A stretch of 25,474 bases of DNA. It comes from a virus. The stretch's first letter is position 1. Each line of letters begins with the position of its first letter. The position numbers and the translations under genes are program-made. The stretch lies in the IMG/VR virus record IMGVR_UViG_3300027749_000452, positions 1 through 25,474 of that record. One strand, given 5' to 3'. The notes under the pieces were generated by a model that saw nothing but the letters and a program-made list of their open reading frames with translations, did not search any database and was not told where the DNA came from. Positions 1 to 10,914 of the stretch are shown in pieces.

Positions 1-125
1 AGGTTCAGGTCAGCTGGAAGCTCTTCGTAGGCCTTCAGCAGGTGGATGACGATCTTGCTCACGGCTGGGGTGACCCTGGCCGCCTTCAGTTGCTCGGTGA
101 TCCACTCTCTTGGTAGCTCTGGCAT
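1..125 (-). CDS. Unknown phage protein, N-terminal part only
   Basis: The ATG at 125..123 opens a frame with no stop to the window edge, giving about 41 residues that begin MPELPREWITEQLKAA. The fragment is mostly helical-looking and charged, with no motif I recognise. Its ATG shares one base with the TAA of the preceding gene (TAATG), the same coupled arrangement seen at other junctions in this window, which is the main reason to believe it is a gene. It follows the NTP pyrophosphatase and the glycosyltransferase-like gene, so it may belong to the same functional group, but nothing in the visible part shows a function. Confidence 0.6.
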   Translation of the reverse strand, partial: MPELPREWITEQLKAARVTPAVSKIVIHLLKAYEELPADLN

Positions 126-625
126 TAGTTCTCCTCCGTGACTGCCGGTACTGTCTGTGGTCCGCACTTGACGCAGTGCGACGGCGCCAGCGGGTTTGCG
201 CCGACGTCGTCGATCGCGCGGGTGCACTGGACGCACTTGACGCCCTCGGCCTTCACGGCGTAGCCGGCCTCCTGGCGCTTGCGGTTCTTCTCCATCTTCT
301 GCAGGTAGAAGCGGTCCAGCTCCTCGTCGGTGCCGCCGCAGGCCACGATGATGTTGGCCACGAAGTGCAGCACGTCGACGGCCTCCTTGATGACCTCCTT
401 GCGGTCCGCGTACGGCTCGTCGGCCTGCCACGGCTTCCACGACAGCGGCTGGCGCATCTCGGCCAGCTCGTCGTCGATGGCGAGCATGTTCCAGCGGATG
501 TACTCGATGAGGTTGTTGATCTTCTCCGGGGCGTCGCCGGTCATGGCGTCGTAGTCGATCTTGTAGACGTTCTCTTGCAGGTCTCGAGTGCGCTTCAGCC
601 ACTCGTTGAACAGTGTGTTACTCAC
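125..625 (-). CDS. All-alpha NTP pyrophosphatase (dUTPase/dCTPase/MazG-like) with C-terminal zinc ribbon
   Basis: This 166-residue protein has the metal-binding pattern of all-alpha NTP pyrophosphatases: E53-x-x-E56 (DELAEM) and E81-x-x-D84 (KEAVDVLHF) on two helices. The family hydrolyses dUTP, dCTP or other (d)NTPs to the monophosphate and pyrophosphate. After the helical domain, Cys131, Cys134, Cys151 and Cys154 form a CxxC...CxxC zinc ribbon, which is an unusual addition. The start is GTG at 625, overlapping the TGA of the glycosyltransferase-like gene (GTGA), with GGAGAG about nine bases upstream. The substrate cannot be read from sequence. The dCMP-type synthase and dNMP kinase at 9062..10914 make a dCTP-removing role like T4 gp56 attractive, but dUTPase or general house-cleaning is equally compatible with the motifs. 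Confidence 0.8.
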   Translation of the reverse strand: MSNTLFNEWLKRTRDLQENVYKIDYDAMTGDAPEKINNLIEYIRWNMLAIDDELAEMRQPLSWKPWQADEPYADRKEVIKEAVDVLHFVANIIVACGGTDEELDRFYLQKMEKNRKRQEAGYAVKAEGVKCVQCTRAIDDVGANPLAPSHCVKCGPQTVPAVTEEN

Positions 626-1659
626 TTGCTGGTCTCTCCAATGTTTATGTTTAGTATCTGCTGCAGCTCCACCGCCGAGTCTTTGACGGTTGAGATGCTG
701 CCCGCGTAGGCGTCGCGCTGCGCCGCCGCCAACTCCGCGCGTTCCTGCTGGCTCATAGCTTCAATACTAGCAGCCAGGTGGGTCCAGGAGTCTCCAAGAC
801 GCACCGTGTCTTGCCAGTAGCTCGCCACCGGCACCTTGGCGACCAGGGCCATCGCGTAGTACGGCGACCACCAGGTTCCGCCCGGCTTCTGCGGCGAGAC
901 CATGACCCCGACGGCCAGGCTGAGCTGCCCGCGTATCTGGGCGTCGGTCCACCCCTTGTGCCACTTCAGCGGGGCGACCTGGGTGTTTAGGGTCGCCATG
1001 GTTGACTTGGACCAGGCTGTTTTAGGCGCGTCAACAAGCCACCGGTTGCCCGTAGGAGCCTCGGTGGCGCCCTGGTCAGCCAGTATTAGGCTGTCCAGGT
1101 TCACGGGCTCCAGACGGCCTCTGGCGCCCTCTGGGAGCATCTTTTCCAGGTCTGCAGTCAGGTTGTTCCAGGGCAGCTCCGGGTACAGGGTAACCGGCCA
1201 CTTTGGGTCCTGCAGGAGTGCCCGGCAGGCACCCCAGACGTAGGTCATCAGCTCGGCGCTCTTGTTTACGACGGCGTACCCGCGGCGGGCGGAGTAGAAC
1301 GACTTGAATAGCGTGTGCTCGTTTATCACCGCGGTCTGCAGCGAGGTCTGGATCTGCCCAGCGTCCGGCGCGTCAAAGAACAGGCGCAGTCTCGGGTCGT
1401 CAAACAGCAGGTGGATCAGCTTCAGTGCGCCGTAGGCGTAGTTGGCGCTGAGGCTGGTGACGGGGGCGATTCCCACGATTATTGAGTCGTACTGCGACAG
1501 GTGCTCGGCGTCCCAGTCGAGCGAGGCGGGCGTCCAGTCTACCGAGTGCCCCCGCAACTCCAGGGACCGCTTCAGCAGCCCCGCGAAGTTTGTGTTTCGA
1601 CTCCCCAGTCTAGCCGAGGCCTGCGGACTGGTCATCCCAGTCAAAAGAACTTTTTTCAT
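622..1659 (-). CDS. Probable GT-B-fold glycosyltransferase, possibly DNA base glucosyltransferase-like
   Basis: The protein has 345 residues. The N-terminal half looks like a Rossmann domain: a beta strand KKVLLTGM, then a helix in the region NFAGLLKRSLELRGHSVDW, strand YDSIIVG (58-64), and strand LRLFFDAP (91-98). The C-terminal half has the usual GT-B donor-site layout: a strand AVGVMVSP (249-256), a Trp-rich loop GGTWWSPYYAMAL (260-272), strand VPVASYW (276-282), then helices with MSQQERAELAAAQRDAY. This order resembles T4 beta-glucosyltransferase as I remember it, including its length (about 351 residues), but the identity is clearly low. The start is ATG 1659 with AAGGAAG upstream; a strong hairpin lies just before it. 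Alternative: a glycosyltransferase acting on another acceptor, or another two-domain Rossmann protein. Confidence 0.55.
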   Translation of the reverse strand: MKKVLLTGMTSPQASARLGSRNTNFAGLLKRSLELRGHSVDWTPASLDWDAEHLSQYDSIIVGIAPVTSLSANYAYGALKLIHLLFDDPRLRLFFDAPDAGQIQTSLQTAVINEHTLFKSFYSARRGYAVVNKSAELMTYVWGACRALLQDPKWPVTLYPELPWNNLTADLEKMLPEGARGRLEPVNLDSLILADQGATEAPTGNRWLVDAPKTAWSKSTMATLNTQVAPLKWHKGWTDAQIRGQLSLAVGVMVSPQKPGGTWWSPYYAMALVAKVPVASYWQDTVRLGDSWTHLAASIEAMSQQERAELAAAQRDAYAGSISTVKDSAVELQQILNINIGETSK

Positions 1660-1732: not shown

Positions 1733-2281
1733 TTAGAACGGAGCGTCAGGCAACGTTGACGTTGCCGGTGCTGGAGCCGGTGCTGGAGCCGGTGCTGGAG
1801 CCGGCGCTGGAGCCGGTGCTGGAGCCGGCGCTGGAGCAGCGGCGGCAACTGGAGCGGTGGCGGTGTTGCTGCCGGCGAGAACGTAGTACTTCTTGATCTC
1901 GTTGCGCTTTTCACCCTGCCAGACGCGAGAGCCAATCTGGCCGCGGAACGTGCGGTTTAGGATGGCTGACTCAATCTGGGCGTTGCTTGGGTTGGTGGTG
2001 AAGTACTCGCGGTTTAGGCCGAGAGCCGCCATCTTGCCAAAGAAGATCCCCAGCGCGCTGGCGTTCTCCGGTGAGACCACCAGGTTGTCCCAGACGCGGC
2101 GCTTAGCGTGCGCACCGACCTGGACCTCGGTGGTGATCTTGAACATGGTCTTTCCAGACGCAGACACGGTGGCCTTTGCCTCGATTACCTTTAGCTCGTA
2201 GTCACCGTCAGGCAGTGGCTCGTAGCTGTTTGCGCCTTCTCCGGCGTCTTTTACTAGGTCGCCCCAGTTGAGTGAACTCAT
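1733..2281 (-). CDS. Single-stranded DNA-binding-like protein (DUF669-type) with Ala-Pro linker
   Basis: The 182-residue protein has an N-terminal beta-rich domain (about 1-140) of the type found next to phage Sak4/RecA-like ATPases: PLPDGDYELKVIEAKA, then FKITTEVQVG, RRVWDNLVVSP and a helical stretch ALGIFFGKMAALGLN. The tail is a low-complexity Ala-Pro linker (about 147-174) followed by the tip TSTLPDAPF, which recalls the acidic, Pro-Phe-ending tip of bacterial SSB that recruits partner proteins. The likely role is coating single-stranded DNA during replication or recombination together with the next two genes. ATG 2281 is preceded by AAGGAGAACGA. The assignment rests on pattern and neighbours; the family name is tentative. 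Confidence 0.7.
   Translation of the reverse strand: MSSLNWGDLVKDAGEGANSYEPLPDGDYELKVIEAKATVSASGKTMFKITTEVQVGAHAKRRVWDNLVVSPENASALGIFFGKMAALGLNREYFTTNPSNAQIESAILNRTFRGQIGSRVWQGEKRNEIKKYYVLAGSNTATAPVAAAAPAPAPAPAPAPAPAPAPAPAPAPATSTLPDAPF
1765..1836 (-). repeat. Six tandem 12-bp units encoding the Ala-Pro linker
   Basis: On the plus strand the unit is CCGGTGCTGGAG or CCGGCGCTGGAG, repeated six times without interruption. Units differ only at one T/C position (1, 2, 3 and 5 carry T; 4 and 6 carry C). On the coding strand each unit adds Ala-Pro-Ala-Pro to the SSB-like protein. Such a tract can gain or lose units by replication slippage while keeping the reading frame. Confidence 0.95.
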
Positions 2282-6017: not shown

Positions 6018-6485
6018 CTAGTCCAGTAGGCGTCTGGGAACCCAGCCGCTCTTTACCAGCCGGAGCAGCCCGTGGCGTATTGCATCCAGGGCGTGTCCCT
6101 CACCGCCTCTGTGCCAGTACTCCAGCTTCTTCAGCTTGTCGTTTGGAAAGACCGCCTTCGCGTCGGCCGGGGCCTGGAAGTAGATGTCGTCCGCCGCGCG
6201 ACCGGCGTCCATGAGACACTGCTTCAGGATCCCGATCTGCTCCAGCGAGTAGGGGGCCTGGGCGTTCTTGGCGGTCTGGGCGTTGATGGTAAAGCGCTCG
6301 CAGGCGACCTCCAGCGGCACGCCGGTCAGGCTCGACAGCTGCAGCGCCGCGCGGACCGGTCCGGCAAACTCGTGCTGCTGCACCTCCATCGACCACATGA
6401 GGTCCGGCTCTCCGCCGGCCTCGTACTCGAAGAGGGCCAGTCCGGTGGCCTTGCCCGGGTCCACCGCCAGTATCAGTCTGGTCAT
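6018..6485 (-). CDS. RuvC-like Holliday junction resolvase (RNase H fold)
   Basis: This 155-residue protein starts MTRLILAVDPGKATGLALF, the first strand of the RuvC/RNase H fold with Asp9. Glu63 lies in the second core strand (EVACERF), and the C-terminal helix GHALDAIRH carries His131 and Asp134, completing the metal-binding set. It would cut branched DNA made during replication and recombination before packaging. The ATG at 6485 shares a base with the polymerase TAA (TAATG). A longer reading with an N-terminal extension up to 6761 would lie inside the polymerase gene and gives an Arg/Gly-rich out-of-frame sequence, so I reject it. Confidence 0.85.
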   Translation of the reverse strand: MTRLILAVDPGKATGLALFEYEAGGEPDLMWSMEVQQHEFAGPVRAALQLSSLTGVPLEVACERFTINAQTAKNAQAPYSLEQIGILKQCLMDAGRAADDIYFQAPADAKAVFPNDKLKKLEYWHRGGEGHALDAIRHGLLRLVKSGWVPRRLLD

Positions 6486-8305
6486 TAGTACTTGTCTCCC
6501 CACGTCTCCAGTGGTCCGTCGATGCCCGAGGTGAGCGGGATTGCCCAGCCCTCGGTGGTGGTCATGCACTCCTTGACGGTCCGCATGATCTCCTCCACGT
6601 CGCCTCGCGGCGCGTTGAGGACTATTTCGTCGTGCACCGGCACGATGAGCAGGTCGGTCAGGTCCGCCTGGTCCAGCTTGATGAGGTTGTTCTTGAAGAC
6701 CTCGGCGGCTCCGCCCTGCACCAGGTAGTTCACCAGCGAGTAGACGCGGTCCTCGTCGCACGGCAGCCTCCTGCCGGTCCAGGTGTTCACGTAGCCCTGG
6801 CCCTCGGAGCGGAGGCGGCGCATGCCGATGTCTTCTACCTGCTTCTGGAACAGCGCCATGCCGGGGAAGCGCAGGTCAAACGCGTCGGACACCGCCTGCA
6901 TCTGCGCCTTCGGCACGCCGGCGGTGAGCGCCTGCTTCTCGACCCCCGCGCCGTACAGGCGTCCGTAGACCACTCCCTTGATGAGTCCGCGGCGCTTGTC
7001 GGAGCGCTGCATGGTCGGGTCCTGGTAGATCTCGCGACCGATCTCGGTGAACGGGTCGGAGCCGGTGGCGTCGGCCAGGTTGAACAGCGAGATGAGGTTT
7101 GGGTCCTGCGACAGCGAGGAGAACATGCGAAACTCCACCTGGTCGAGGTCGGAGGTCACGATGACGTGGTCCTCGTCCTTTGGGATGAAGGCGCGGCGAA
7201 CGGTGTCGTCGCCCTTCGGCAGGGTCTGCAGCGCCGGGTTGGTGATGGACATGCGGCCGGTGCGCGCGCCCATGGTCTTGACTGACGGGTGCACGAAGCC
7301 GTTGACGTTGTCGGTCAGGAAGTTCTTGAAGTAGGTGTTGGCCAGCTTGTCCGCCTTGCGCTGCTTCAGCACGATGTCGGCCAGCTGCCGCACCTCCGGG
7401 CGCTCGTCTAGCAGGAACATGGACAGCTGGTCCTTGTTGACCGCCTTCATGCCGGACGCCGTCACTTCGGTGATCTCCGCGCCCATGCGCTCAAACTCGC
7501 GAACTAGCTGGATGTTGCTGGTGATGCCGAGGCCGTTGTAGTTGGCCCTGGCCCAGTCCTTGACCTGCTCGCCGTAGGCGCTCAGCTCGTCAAACTTCTT
7601 CTTCGAGTACTCCAGGTCGATGCGCGCGCCGTTTAGCTCCATGCGGGTCACCACCTTGCGGGCGGCCATCTCCAGGTCGTAGGCTCGGCTGTACTGCTTG
7701 CCCGGCGCGCACTGCTCCCAGAACTTTTCCCACAGGCGCATGGTGATGACCGTGTCCAGCGCGCCGTACGCCCAGTACGGCTGAAAGTTTGTCGGCACGG
7801 TTCCCCAGGTCCAGCCGTTCTCGGCCAGCGACGCGTCGAGCGTCGCCTGCAGGGCGGCGGAGCGGCCGTCGATGTGCAGCGAGGCCAGGCGCTTCAGTGC
7901 CCCGGATCCCAGCGGGTCGATGAGCTGGGCCATGATCATGGTGTCGTGGGCCTTGTGCCACGGCATGCGCCAGCGGGACTGCACCTCGAACCACTTTGCC
8001 TCGAAGGCGATGTTGTGGCAGACGATGGGTCCGTCGTAGCGCTCCATGGCCTGGTAGAACACGCCGGCCCACTCGTCCCACGGGATCGCCCAGCCGTGCA
8101 TGCCGTCTCCGACCTGGACCAGGCGGATGCGACCGTGCCACGGCGACAGCGCGTGGTCTCTGGGATTGCCCGGCAGCTCGCCGGTCTCGATGTCCACCGA
8201 GACGGCGTCGTAGGGGCGGCGCTCTCCCAGCCAGGTTAGGAATCGTTCGGCCTGTTCGACGCTGTCGACTAGGTCCAGCTGGACGTCGTTCATGCTTCCG
8301 GTCAT
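6485..8305 (-). CDS. polA: Family A DNA polymerase (PolA-type, exonuclease plus polymerase domains)
   Basis: From ATG 8305 the protein has 606 residues. The 3'-5' exonuclease domain shows VDIETG (Asp38, Glu40), HNIAFE (97-102) and YGALD (Tyr180, Asp184). The polymerase domain shows motif A DLDQVEFR (386-393), motif B KRRGLIKGVVYGRLYG with Lys443 and Tyr447, and motif C VPVHDEIV (Asp559). There is no 5' nuclease domain. Two details stand out: Exo II has Glu102 where Asp is usual, and motif B has Tyr447 at the position of E. coli Phe762, as in T7 polymerase. The start ATG overlaps the deaminase TGA (ATGA); a second Met four codons later (8293) is possible. Replication of the phage genome is the expected role. 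Confidence 0.93.
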   Translation of the reverse strand: MTGSMNDVQLDLVDSVEQAERFLTWLGERRPYDAVSVDIETGELPGNPRDHALSPWHGRIRLVQVGDGMHGWAIPWDEWAGVFYQAMERYDGPIVCHNIAFEAKWFEVQSRWRMPWHKAHDTMIMAQLIDPLGSGALKRLASLHIDGRSAALQATLDASLAENGWTWGTVPTNFQPYWAYGALDTVITMRLWEKFWEQCAPGKQYSRAYDLEMAARKVVTRMELNGARIDLEYSKKKFDELSAYGEQVKDWARANYNGLGITSNIQLVREFERMGAEITEVTASGMKAVNKDQLSMFLLDERPEVRQLADIVLKQRKADKLANTYFKNFLTDNVNGFVHPSVKTMGARTGRMSITNPALQTLPKGDDTVRRAFIPKDEDHVIVTSDLDQVEFRMFSSLSQDPNLISLFNLADATGSDPFTEIGREIYQDPTMQRSDKRRGLIKGVVYGRLYGAGVEKQALTAGVPKAQMQAVSDAFDLRFPGMALFQKQVEDIGMRRLRSEGQGYVNTWTGRRLPCDEDRVYSLVNYLVQGGAAEVFKNNLIKLDQADLTDLLIVPVHDEIVLNAPRGDVEEIMRTVKECMTTTEGWAIPLTSGIDGPLETWGDKY

Positions 8306-8805
8306 TTGTCTGTCTCGTCTCTGTTGATGGTCAGCACCTCTAGGCCGCAGTCTCGCAGGTAGCTCAGGGCCACCTCGGGGGTGCGGTGCTGGTCGGCCTC
8401 TCCAATCATAGCGACTACTCTGGACAACCCGGAGTTGGAGATCAGCTTGGCGCACTGCATGCAGGGTGGGGCGGTCACGTAGATGGTCCCTCGGAGGACC
8501 TGGGAGCGGTCTACGTACAGAAGCGCGTTTGCCTCAGCGTGGATGCTCGGGCAGCCGTCGTAGGCCCCAGAGAGCCCCGTGGTGCCCCTTGCGCGCTCGC
8601 ACCAGTTGATGCAGTCGCCCTCGCCCCTGAAGGTCGCAGCGGGTCCGTTGTAGCCCGTCGCGCTGATGCGCTGCTCGTGGCTCACGACCACCGCGCCCAT
8701 GCTGGCCCGGGTGCAGCGAGAGCGCAGGCTGACGGCGTGCGCCACCTGCATCCACACCTCGTCCCAGGAGGGCCTAGTAGAGGTCTTGCGGTCCGTTCCA
8801 GTCAT
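8302..8805 (-). CDS. dCMP deaminase
   Basis: The 167-residue protein has the cytidine/deoxycytidylate deaminase zinc site: His89-Ala-Glu91 (IHAEAN) and Pro-Cys115-x-x-Cys118 (PPCMQC), plus the GYNGPA substrate-loop motif (51-56) typical of dCMP deaminases. It converts dCMP to dUMP, supplying the substrate for thymidylate synthesis. The ATG lies inside the preceding acidic ORF, a 32-base overlap; a later start would remove the first helix, so I keep this one. In T4 the same enzyme sits beside dCMP hydroxymethylase and competes for dCMP, and here the Asp180-type synthase is two genes upstream. Confidence 0.92.
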   Translation of the reverse strand: MTGTDRKTSTRPSWDEVWMQVAHAVSLRSRCTRASMGAVVVSHEQRISATGYNGPAATFRGEGDCINWCERARGTTGLSGAYDGCPSIHAEANALLYVDRSQVLRGTIYVTAPPCMQCAKLISNSGLSRVVAMIGEADQHRTPEVALSYLRDCGLEVLTINRDETDK

Positions 8806-9061
8806 CGTCGTCGTCCTCGTCGTTGTTGTAGTTGTCGTTGTTTCCCAGCAGGTCTCCCACCGGAGTGTACTGGATCATGGTGGACAGCATCCCCGTGACC
8901 ATGGTGATGGCCTCGGGAGGGGTGAACCCAGCGCGCTTCAGCGACTCGTACACCTCGTTGAGCTGCACGGTCATGGAGTCTAGGACGCTCATTACCTGCT
9001 CGTTTAGGATGCCGGTCGGGTCCTCGGGGTCCTCGCCTCTGCCGTTGTTGTTCTCTAGCAC
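8774..9061 (-). CDS. Small acidic protein of unknown function
   Basis: This 95-residue protein starts at GTG 9061, directly after the TAA of the synthase gene (TAAGTG). It has a helical middle (EQVMSVLDSMTVQLNEVYESLKRAGF), a segment PPEAITMVTGMLSTMI, and an acidic tail NDEDDDDDWNG. Its last 32 bases overlap the dCMP deaminase start. I recognise no family. The small size, acidic tail and position in the nucleotide cluster are compatible with a regulatory or adaptor protein, but that is a guess. Confidence 0.7.
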   Translation of the reverse strand: MLENNNGRGEDPEDPTGILNEQVMSVLDSMTVQLNEVYESLKRAGFTPPEAITMVTGMLSTMIQYTPVGDLLGNNDNYNNDEDDDDDWNGPQDLY

Positions 9062-9916
9062 TTACTGCTTGCCGGCGTTCTTCTCAACCGCCTTGGCCAT
9101 CGCGTCGCGGTACCAGCGGGCCTCTGGAGACAGCTTCTCCGCCAGCGGCGTTTCCCTGACCGCCTGCAGCGCGGCGAGCGCCTGGACGCTGACGTCCAGC
9201 CAGTCTCTTCCGGTGATGGCTGGCACGTCGACGTAGCTGTCGGTGTACTTCAGCTTGTTTGCCACCTCGTAGTGTTGCTCGTAGATGTGCAGGGAGCCCA
9301 CGTGGTGCACGTAGCTTCCGACGCCGACGCCCAACACCGAGGCCAGCGCGATCTGCACGCGGGTGAACTGAAAGAAGTCGTAGGCCGCTCCCAGCCAGAC
9401 GTCGTTGGAGCGCATGTACACACTCATGTTCAGCTTGTTGTCGCGAATGCGAAACTGCATCAGCGTGGTGCAAGGGTAGTCCTTCTTGCCCGGCAGGAGA
9501 TCCAGCTCCGGGTTCCAGATGACCACCTGCGCCTGCCGGCTGTCCGGGTCGGCCTTTAGTCGTTCAACGATGACCGCAAACTGGCCGTCGGTGCGGGCAC
9601 CGTACGCGCCGTGAAAGGTGACGCCGTCGTCGTTGGTGTAGGCGCTAAACTGGGGAGCGACCTCCAGCAGCAGTCTCGGGGTCGAGACCCCGGCGAGCAG
9701 CTGCATGGCCTCGACGGCCCCGATGCCGGGGACGGTGCCGCGACCCACGTTTAGCGGCAGCGCGTTTGTAGGGTCGGCGATGCGAACCACTGCGTCCTCG
9801 ATCTCGCGGGTCTTCTGCCCGCGCGGCGCGGTCTCCCTGCCGTGCTCCAGCACGTGCCTGACCAGGTCAACGTAGCCGTTGACGCCGTCCTTGATGTTGA
9901 TTACTGCAGAATCCAC
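9062..9916 (-). CDS. Thymidylate-synthase-family enzyme, predicted dCMP-type (hydroxymethylase or methylase)
   Basis: The 284-residue protein aligns by eye with thymidylate synthase: YG (105-106), DPDSR (123-127), catalytic Cys149 (YPCTT), RSNDVWLG (169-176) and LHIY (209-212, His210 and Tyr212). At position 180, in LGAAYD, it has Asp where E. coli ThyA has Asn177 (LPFN). That Asn reads the dUMP base. T4 dCMP hydroxymethylase has Asp179 and Cys148, the same spacing of 31. The C-terminus (EKNAGKQ) lacks the PVAI-like end that closes the synthase active site. The predicted reaction is transfer of a one-carbon group from methylene-tetrahydrofolate to C5 of dCMP. GTG 9916 follows AAGGACGAGAA and overlaps the kinase end by 16 bases. 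An ordinary thymidylate synthase with an unusual residue remains possible. Confidence 0.8.
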   Translation of the reverse strand: MDSAVINIKDGVNGYVDLVRHVLEHGRETAPRGQKTREIEDAVVRIADPTNALPLNVGRGTVPGIGAVEAMQLLAGVSTPRLLLEVAPQFSAYTNDDGVTFHGAYGARTDGQFAVIVERLKADPDSRQAQVVIWNPELDLLPGKKDYPCTTLMQFRIRDNKLNMSVYMRSNDVWLGAAYDFFQFTRVQIALASVLGVGVGSYVHHVGSLHIYEQHYEVANKLKYTDSYVDVPAITGRDWLDVSVQALAALQAVRETPLAEKLSPEARWYRDAMAKAVEKNAGKQ

Positions 9917-10914
9917 TTCTCGTCCTTACTGTCGATCTTCTTACTTATTCTAGCAATGGCCTTGCCGTACTGACCTTTTCTCTTGTTGAAGAAGCGGCGC
10001 ACGAACTGCGGGTGCGGCAGCACCGCGTAGTCGACGTACTCCTTCAGCCCGAGCTTCACCAGCGCCTTCTCGGCCTCGCGGCCCAGGGCCACGATGGTCG
10101 GGTTGCCCAGCTCGGTCCACAGGGACACAAAGGTCTCCGGGGACTCGTTGGCGTTCACTATGCCGACCTCGCGCCAGAAGTTGTCGCGCAGGCTGGACAT
10201 GAGGTAGTTGCCGGAGTTGCCGTCAACGGGGATGAACGGGAGCTTGGTGCTGCTGCCGTACCACGGCTTGCTCGGGCGCTCGTCGCCGACCAGCAGGACC
10301 TTTGGGTTCGCGCCGCCCAGGTAGTGCTTGTACGGGCGCAGGCCCTCGACGCCGCGGGCGGTCAGCTCGGCCCAGTCGACCATCTCCTTGGCGGTCTGCT
10401 GCAGGTCGTCTAGGCTGCTGGCCTTCGGCTTCAGCTTGACGCTGGTAAACGAGTTTCTGTAGGCCTTGCGGCAGAGCTTTAGGATCTTGCCCAGCTCGTT
10501 GACCTTGACGTAGTCGTCGCCCCGCTCGAGCAGGCGCTTCTTGATGACGCCTAGCGGCTGGTAGAGCCAGAAGTGCGCGACGCCGCGGGAGGCCAGGAAC
10601 AGCTCGGTCCAGCGCCAGCCGGCCTCGCCGAGCAGGCCGAAGCCGTCCTTGTCGGTGTGCGGGCGCTTTAGCGGGGCGTAGGTGGCCTCGCCCCAGTGCC
10701 AGCGGTCGGCGATGATGATGTCCTCGTCTAGGTCGATGTCCTCGACGGACAGGACGTAGTCCTTGATGACCCAGCGGCGGGTCTCCTCCTCCGGGCGCGA
10801 CTTGTGCAGGAGGTGGATCTTGCGGTCTGGGTAGCGGCGCTTGGCCTCGGCGCGCACGGCCTCTATCAGGGTGCTCTTGCCGGAGGCGTCGGTGCCCTCG
10901 ATGATGATGAACAT
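9901..10914 (-). CDS. Deoxynucleoside monophosphate kinase fused to a uracil-DNA-glycosylase-like domain
   Basis: Residues 1 to about 190 form a thymidylate-kinase-like P-loop kinase: MFIIIEGTDASGKSTL with Walker A 6-15, the ADRWHWGEATY motif (69-79) and a lid-like LLERGDD (128-134). Residues about 203-325 look like a UDG-superfamily domain: KVLLVGDERPSKPW (205-218), strand IVALG (274-278), and LPHPQFVRRFFNKRKGQY (299-316), where HPQ takes the place of the HPS-type motif. The kinase would phosphorylate a deoxynucleoside monophosphate; T4 gp1 does this for hydroxymethyl-dCMP. The glycosylase-like half may only bind bases. ATG 10914 follows AGAGAGACGAGACAC. The next gene is the dCMP-type synthase, overlapping by 16 bases, so the two are coupled. 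Confidence 0.75.
   Translation of the reverse strand: MFIIIEGTDASGKSTLIEAVRAEAKRRYPDRKIHLLHKSRPEEETRRWVIKDYVLSVEDIDLDEDIIIADRWHWGEATYAPLKRPHTDKDGFGLLGEAGWRWTELFLASRGVAHFWLYQPLGVIKKRLLERGDDYVKVNELGKILKLCRKAYRNSFTSVKLKPKASSLDDLQQTAKEMVDWAELTARGVEGLRPYKHYLGGANPKVLLVGDERPSKPWYGSSTKLPFIPVDGNSGNYLMSSLRDNFWREVGIVNANESPETFVSLWTELGNPTIVALGREAEKALVKLGLKEYVDYAVLPHPQFVRRFFNKRKGQYGKAIARISKKIDSKDEKWILQ

Follow-up and report, generated by a model that had tools for sequence, protein, structure and literature searches.

The window analyzed here is a virus record of 25.5 kb, in which the likely genes all lie on the minus strand; those for the tail and tape measure occupy the high coordinates, and a module for replication and nucleotides occupies the low ones. 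In this module, positions 9062–9916 (minus strand) encode a 284-residue member of the thymidylate synthase superfamily with a GTG start codon (Pfam Thymidylat_synt, PF00303, E = 3.5e-26), a predicted dCMP 5-hydroxymethylase. The earlier note on these positions had the open reading frame and its active-site residue right and omitted only the strand; the plus-strand frame contains stops. The start of this gene is overlapped by the gene for a 337-residue P-loop protein resembling dNMP kinases (9901–10914, minus strand; phrog_761 thymidylate kinase, E = 3e-14), a proposed hmdCMP kinase present in 82 of 83 loci. The extra C-terminal half of the kinase-like protein has an invariant His-Pro motif and a weak likeness to uracil-DNA glycosylase (Pfam UDG, E = 0.016, below the cut-off); such a fusion adjoining a hydroxymethylase gene is unusual. 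On the other side lie a 95-residue acidic protein (8774–9061, minus strand) without a family match, a dCMP deaminase (8302–8805, minus strand; PF00383, E = 2e-18; phrog_174, E = 2e-40), and a family A DNA polymerase, PolA, with a 3′-5′ exonuclease (6485–8305, minus strand; PF00476, E = 1e-50). The acidic protein has an Asn/Asp run close to its end, its gene overlaps the start of the deaminase gene, and it has only faint matches in relatives.

The genes for the kinase-like protein, the hydroxymethylase, the dCMP deaminase, and PolA are consecutive in about 80 of the 83 loci, followed beyond PolA, where the contigs reach that far, by RuvC-like, SNF2 helicase, Cas4-like, RecA-like, and SSB-like genes. 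The SSB-like protein of the window (1733–2281) contains a long run of alternating Pro and Ala residues close to its C terminus. At the low end of the window are a 345-residue protein of a phrog_14998-like superfamily (622–1659, minus strand), which we consider a candidate transferase acting on 5-hydroxymethylcytosine (5hmC; a furanosyl- or other glycosyltransferase), and an all-alpha NTP pyrophosphohydrolase of the dUTPase_2/MazG type (125–625, minus strand; PF08761, E = 1.2e-11; phrog_18650 dUTPase, E = 7e-21). Judged from their fold families, the kinase-like protein would be a dNMP kinase and the pyrophosphohydrolase a candidate dCTPase/dUTPase; we take the T4 dCTPase-dUTPase gp56 to belong to the same broad superfamily as the latter. 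The hmdCTP set of T4 consists of gp56, gp42, and the gp1 kinase (PMC2993671). The nearest named phage, the metagenome-assembled Actinomycetia phage DSL-LC01, shares 61% identity in the thymidylate synthase homologue and has an identical gene order.

Retrieval of 80 environmental loci from IMG/VR provided 56 distinct relatives of the 9062–9916 protein at about 59–72% identity. The catalytic Cys, Glu58, Tyr94, Arg166, Asp169, His207, and Tyr209 of the thymidylate synthase fold are all found in the window protein and in 56/56 relatives. Its best PDB match was the CMP 5-hydroxymethylase MilA (PDB 5b6d, E = 7e-26), and the nearest solved structures are hydroxymethylases. The earlier note had proposed an alignment with E. 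coli ThyA and T4 gp42, and the MAFFT alignment placed Cys149 (TGC, 9470–9472) at ThyA Cys146 and T4 Cys148, and Asp180 (GAC, 9377–9379, minus strand) at ThyA Asn177 and T4 Asp179, the position of cytosine recognition; the spacing of 31 residues between the two agrees with that in both reference proteins, as had been claimed. Thr150 (ACC), which with Cys149 occupies 9467–9472 on the minus strand, replaces ThyA His147 and is Thr in gp42. Asp146 (GAC, 9479–9481, minus strand) aligns with Leu143 of ThyA and with Asp145 of T4, the residue that activates the substrate water. Asp at column 177 (E. coli numbering) was found in 56/56 distinct IMG/VR relatives and also in Gordonia phages and phage G at 34–42% identity, and this conservation excludes chance or a sequencing error as the source of Asp180.

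Comparison of whole sets of proteins indicated that this residue does not stand alone. The viral ThyA proteins retrieved by a search with the E. coli protein uniformly have Asn177, Leu143, His147, Gln165, and Trp80 (76/76 distinct), and the relatives of the window protein uniformly have Asp177, Asp143 (three residues before the catalytic Cys, or C-3), Thr147, Met165, and Phe at the Trp80 position (56/56 for each). Proteins of the T4 gp42 type (56/56 distinct) share Asp177, Asp143, Thr147, and Met165 with the window family and retain Trp80. From these column counts, Asp177 is part of a co-changing set rather than a lone substitution. A single exchanged residue in a thymidylate synthase does not account for the window protein, which departs from ThyA at five or more active-site columns at once; in place of Asn177, Leu143, His147, Trp80, and the C-terminal closing peptide it has Asp, Asp, Thr, Phe (Phe90), and no such peptide. 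The missing closing peptide and the non-conserved Trp had both been reported in the earlier note, and both observations held. The dCMP specificity proposed there also gained support, as Asp180 is accompanied by Thr150, Met168, Arg127, and Ser170, all as in T4 gp42, and by nearest structures of the MilA kind, which together point to cytosine as the likely base.

The position three residues before the catalytic Cys bears on the product. In the window protein this residue is Asp146 (motif GKKDYPCT), and Asp is found there in 56/56 relatives, T4 gp42, MilA, and the SPO1 dUMP hydroxymethylase. In T4 gp42 the equivalent Asp145 activates the water that becomes the hydroxyl, and the D145N variant yields no product; Leu occupies this position in thymidylate synthases, and the position has been proposed as a hydroxymethylase signature (PMC6400193; PMC6841964). 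Leu143 of ThyA shields the methylene intermediate from nucleophiles (PMC4342783).

A methylase of the Xp12 kind, which would form 5-methyl-dCMP by hydride transfer, provides the contrasting case, as all cytosine in Xp12 DNA is replaced by 5-methylcytosine. We used the relatives DLP4, PaMx74, and AXL1, which share one genus with Xp12, as methylase controls standing in for Xp12 itself; AXL1 DNA resists restriction enzymes much like Xp12 DNA, and all eight members of the genus carry dihydrofolate reductase (DHFR) (PMC9206674). The thymidylate synthase homologues of these three phages possess Asp177 (GLPYDV), Asn at C-3 (KNVPC or RNVPC), Trp80, and Pro147, and the DHFR gene lies one gene beyond them, past a dCMP deaminase gene. 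The Asn at C-3 is the same change that abolishes hydroxymethylation in T4 (D145N) and so points to methylation, which the DHFR gene also fits because methylation by an enzyme of this type yields dihydrofolate. The view in the earlier note that sequence does not allow methylase and hydroxymethylase outcomes to be separated was not supported: the window protein has Asp146, matching T4 Asp145, where the Xp12-genus enzymes carry Asn. Asp177 and an adjoining dCMP deaminase gene are common to the Xp12 genus and the window family, and Asp177 by itself can redirect a canonical thymidylate synthase to dCMP, so that 5mdCMP is formed, as cited in PMC8670742. We nevertheless regard a methylase as unlikely, since the window family has Asp rather than Asn or Leu at C-3, has lost Trp80 and the C terminus that seals tetrahydrofolate, does not have the Pro147 of the controls, and yielded no DHFR (PF00186) in 14 records of 64–136 kb, in a search that recovered DLP4 with a score barely above the cut-off. 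The sequence therefore points to a hydroxymethyl rather than a methyl product, and the two positions, Asp177 and the C-3 residue, should together tell dCMP hydroxymethylases from dCMP methylases.

Two further readings start from the neighboring dCMP deaminase. In one, the protein would use dUMP supplied by the deaminase, acting either as an ordinary thymidylate synthase or as a dUMP hydroxymethylase: its relatives are annotated as thymidylate synthase, the SPO1 dUMP hydroxymethylase also has Asp at C-3, and ThyX was not found in most relatives, so that a phage source of dTMP could be wanted. We judge this to be very unlikely, because every member has Asp177 and shares Thr147 and Met165 with the cytosine enzymes; the corresponding residues in SPO1 and PaMx11 are Asn177, Asn147, and Asn165. 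The Gordonia phage GMA2 encodes ThyX (NC_070761.1:44111-44686) besides its Asp177 homologue, which is consistent with the latter not being the source of dTMP. Alternatively, hmdCMP might be deaminated to hmdUMP by the phage deaminase, placing a hypermodified thymine rather than a modified cytosine in the genome. The T4 deaminase accepts hmdCMP, and a dCMP deaminase gene nearly always lies close to that of the hydroxymethylase. This route seems extremely improbable, however, given that SPO1, and PaMx11 with the same residues, use Asn177 enzymes, and that relatives of the 345-residue gene adjoin TET dioxygenases, which act on cytosine. We therefore predict that the 9062–9916 product is a dCMP 5-hydroxymethylase, with a probability of roughly 85%.

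Known hydroxymethylases place this prediction in context. The CMP enzymes MilA and BcmA carry Ala and Lys where deoxynucleotide enzymes carry Ser and Arg (PMC5175136). MilA from Streptomyces rimofaciens shares Asp186 and the Asp at C-3 with the window protein but carries Ala176 and Lys133, which suit ribose; at the Ser167 and Arg126 positions the window protein has Ser170 and Arg127, and its substrate is accordingly read as dCMP and not CMP. T4 gp42 matches the window protein at Asp179, Asp145, Thr149, Met167, Ser169, and Arg123, likewise has no C-terminal tail sealing tetrahydrofolate, and is accompanied by kinase, dCTPase-like, and candidate transferase genes. It differs in forming a distant, separate clade, in residues corresponding to Gly103 (Ser94 in T4), Phe90 (Trp82), and Tyr93 (Val85), and in its C-terminal region from Tyr212, which comprises 29 residues in gp42 and 73 of a different kind in the window protein. 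Ser94 belongs to a signature of Ser/Thr two residues before the catalytic Tyr, where Gly was found in 56/56 relatives and Ser in 56/56 proteins of the T4 type; SPO1 gp29 has Ala at this position, and the T4 S94A variant retains about 25% activity according to the literature. SPO1 gp29 resembles the window protein in its Asp at C-3 and altered Trp80, yet its Asn177 and Asn147/Asn165 are those of a uracil enzyme; used as a seed against viral contigs, it retrieved no relatives.

In a maximum-likelihood tree, the Xp12-genus (Bosavirus/Pamexvirus) enzymes joined ThyA (98/92), a union that may be a long-branch effect, and the window clade lay among the hydroxymethylases away from ThyA, with gp42 and Xp15 on one side and the window clade on the other. 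The tree without ThyA gave no firm deep branching order of the hydroxymethylase clades, and any such order was dropped. For these reasons the tree serves as support only. Based on Gly103 in place of Ser94 and on the tree placement, we do not file the window protein in the gp42 clade, but we hold that it would work like gp42, going by its active-site residues.

The enzyme belongs to a kind that is already known, because MetaGPA had shown that phage contigs with modified cytosine are marked by two positions in their thymidylate synthase homologues, Asp177 and residue 147 (PMC8670742). The thymidylate synthases of those modified contigs resemble the window protein in Asp177, the changed residue 147, and the co-occurrence of dCMP deaminase and pyrophosphohydrolase; the contigs followed up there encode a carbamoyltransferase, and the window has a phrog_14998-type gene instead (PMC8670742). 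The present analysis adds a product assignment based on the C-3 residue, with the Xp12-genus enzymes as the control, and a connection to the 345/410-residue family described below. The same Asp177/Asp C-3 pair occurs in AXL3, HTVC200P, and phage G gp319, which are labeled thymidylate synthase, and in PW916 (L088:1483-2301) and AB434P2 (L262), which are annotated as deoxyuridylate hydroxymethyltransferase and for which the pair predicts a dCMP enzyme. In the Gordonia phages Phendrix, Sixama, and GMA2, the thymidylate synthase homologue has the Asp/Asp pair in each case, and its gene stays grouped with those for the kinase and the dCMP deaminase.

The 345-residue protein encoded by 622–1659 had no Pfam, PHROG, or PDB match of weight, and PDB profile searches with two family alignments (A1 and A3) also returned nothing meaningful. 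Its profile did match a family of 410-residue paralogues (hhalign E = 2e-25), the gene for which lies directly upstream in most relatives and which in turn matches phrog_14998, listed with unknown function. Several homologues have been named 'glycosyltransferase' by their depositors. A relationship to T4 beta-glucosyltransferase was dropped, as there was no profile match to T4 b-gt (hhalign probability 1.6%), and a Maribacter 'beta glucosyl transferase' did not match the 345-residue profile. The 345-residue gene was found in 14 of 50,697 phage records, all from DSL-LC01 and Gordonia phages and all also among the thymidylate synthase homologue matches; the representative carriers DSL-LC01, Phendrix, Sixama, and GMA2 have the Asp/Asp pair in that homologue. 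In 4 of 38 relatives whose contigs reach far enough (L051:18095-20657, L057, L058, and L072), another cassette takes the place of the 345/410-residue genes; it consists of a 428-residue gene distantly resembling those of Gordonia 'glycosyltransferases' together with one APH-type kinase gene and one HAD-type gene. Contig L027 likewise has the 428-residue glycosyltransferase-like gene and the APH-type kinase (plus the HAD-type gene where the contig reaches) in place of the 345/410-residue genes; this cassette is reminiscent of RB69 genes proposed for UDP-arabinose supply.

The 410-residue gene matched 56 phage records, including Aeromonas T4-like phages and Erwinia phage FBB1. In phiAS4, phage 25, and FBB1 the family gene comes immediately after one for UDP-galactopyranose mutase (PF03275, E = 6e-54, 5e-54, and 9e-49, respectively), and these phages also encode a dCMP hydroxymethylase bearing Asp/Asp/Thr. 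In DSL-LC01 the 345- and 410-residue paralogues flank a mutase gene; it was the only case among the actinophage records searched, and the mutase was not retained as a constant component of the actinophage operon. Phage C48C1, in which no thymidylate synthase homologue was found, has a TET/JBP dioxygenase gene (PF12851, E = 3e-17), a family gene, and a UDP-galactopyranose mutase gene in a row. Among 29 further viral contigs, the 19 of the C48C1 type had TET upstream in 17 (the other two start in or at the family gene) and the mutase downstream in 17, and the 10 of the FBB1 type all had a dCMP hydroxymethylase with Asp/Asp/Thr upstream, with the mutase in 4. These loci are related among themselves and do not represent 29 independent events; they and the actinophages cover at least three separate settings (actinophage, T4-like, and TET type) that do count as independent. 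The contigs with consecutive TET/JBP dioxygenase, phrog_14998-family, and mutase genes are cyanophage-like (L270:1028-4475 and L282-L300). One record, Vibrio 6E35.1a, with an ordinary ThyA alone, matched the family over 20% of the query only.

The row of TET, family gene, and mutase is probably a post-replicative route to sugar-decorated hmC. By linkage to genes for 5hmC-making enzymes (dCMP hydroxymethylase or TET) and to the mutase, 622–1659 encodes a candidate hmC glycosyltransferase, and the protein probably decorates hydroxymethylcytosine further. The linked transferase family looks new; our literature search found no paper combining UDP-galactopyranose mutase, hydroxymethylcytosine, and phage. 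More tentatively, the 345-residue protein and its 410-residue paralogues may be transferases that add a furanose such as galactofuranose to 5hmC in phage DNA, an idea that we put forward as possible though somewhat doubtful. The hydroxymethylase assignment is itself backed by the conserved kinase-hydroxymethylase-deaminase-PolA order together with a gene family that is otherwise tied to 5hmC.

From the residues, synteny, and gene linkages observed here, we infer the substrate, the product, and the roles of the neighbors as follows. Cys149 would attack C6 of dCMP, with Asp180 contacting N3 and the 4-amino group of the cytosine, and one carbon would pass from methylene-tetrahydrofolate to C5. 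Instead of a hydride, water activated by Asp146 would then attack the exocyclic methylene, yielding 5-hydroxymethyl-dCMP and tetrahydrofolate. The kinase-like neighbor (9901–10914) may phosphorylate hmdCMP while the dUTPase_2/MazG-type hydrolase (125–625) removes dCTP and dUTP, the phage PolA would incorporate hmC into the genome, and the 345-residue protein (622–1659) may go on to modify this hydroxymethyl group, with a sugar as the likeliest addition.

These results correct a widespread 'thymidylate synthase' label on a clade of actinobacterial-type phages, and the whole clade, whose members turn up in many environmental metagenomes, is predicted to incorporate 5-hydroxymethylcytosine into its DNA. 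They also tie one gene family to three different hydroxymethylcytosine settings, and through this family the fate of hmC in Aeromonas T4-like phages, a long-standing question, becomes directly testable. The Aeromonas phages 44RR, 31, and 25 possess genes 42 and 56 and no known glucosyltransferase, as described by Petrov and colleagues (PMC2993671). If the proposal of a furanose transferase family is true, it would also account for the sugar transferase that is missing in Aeromonas phage 25 and its relatives.
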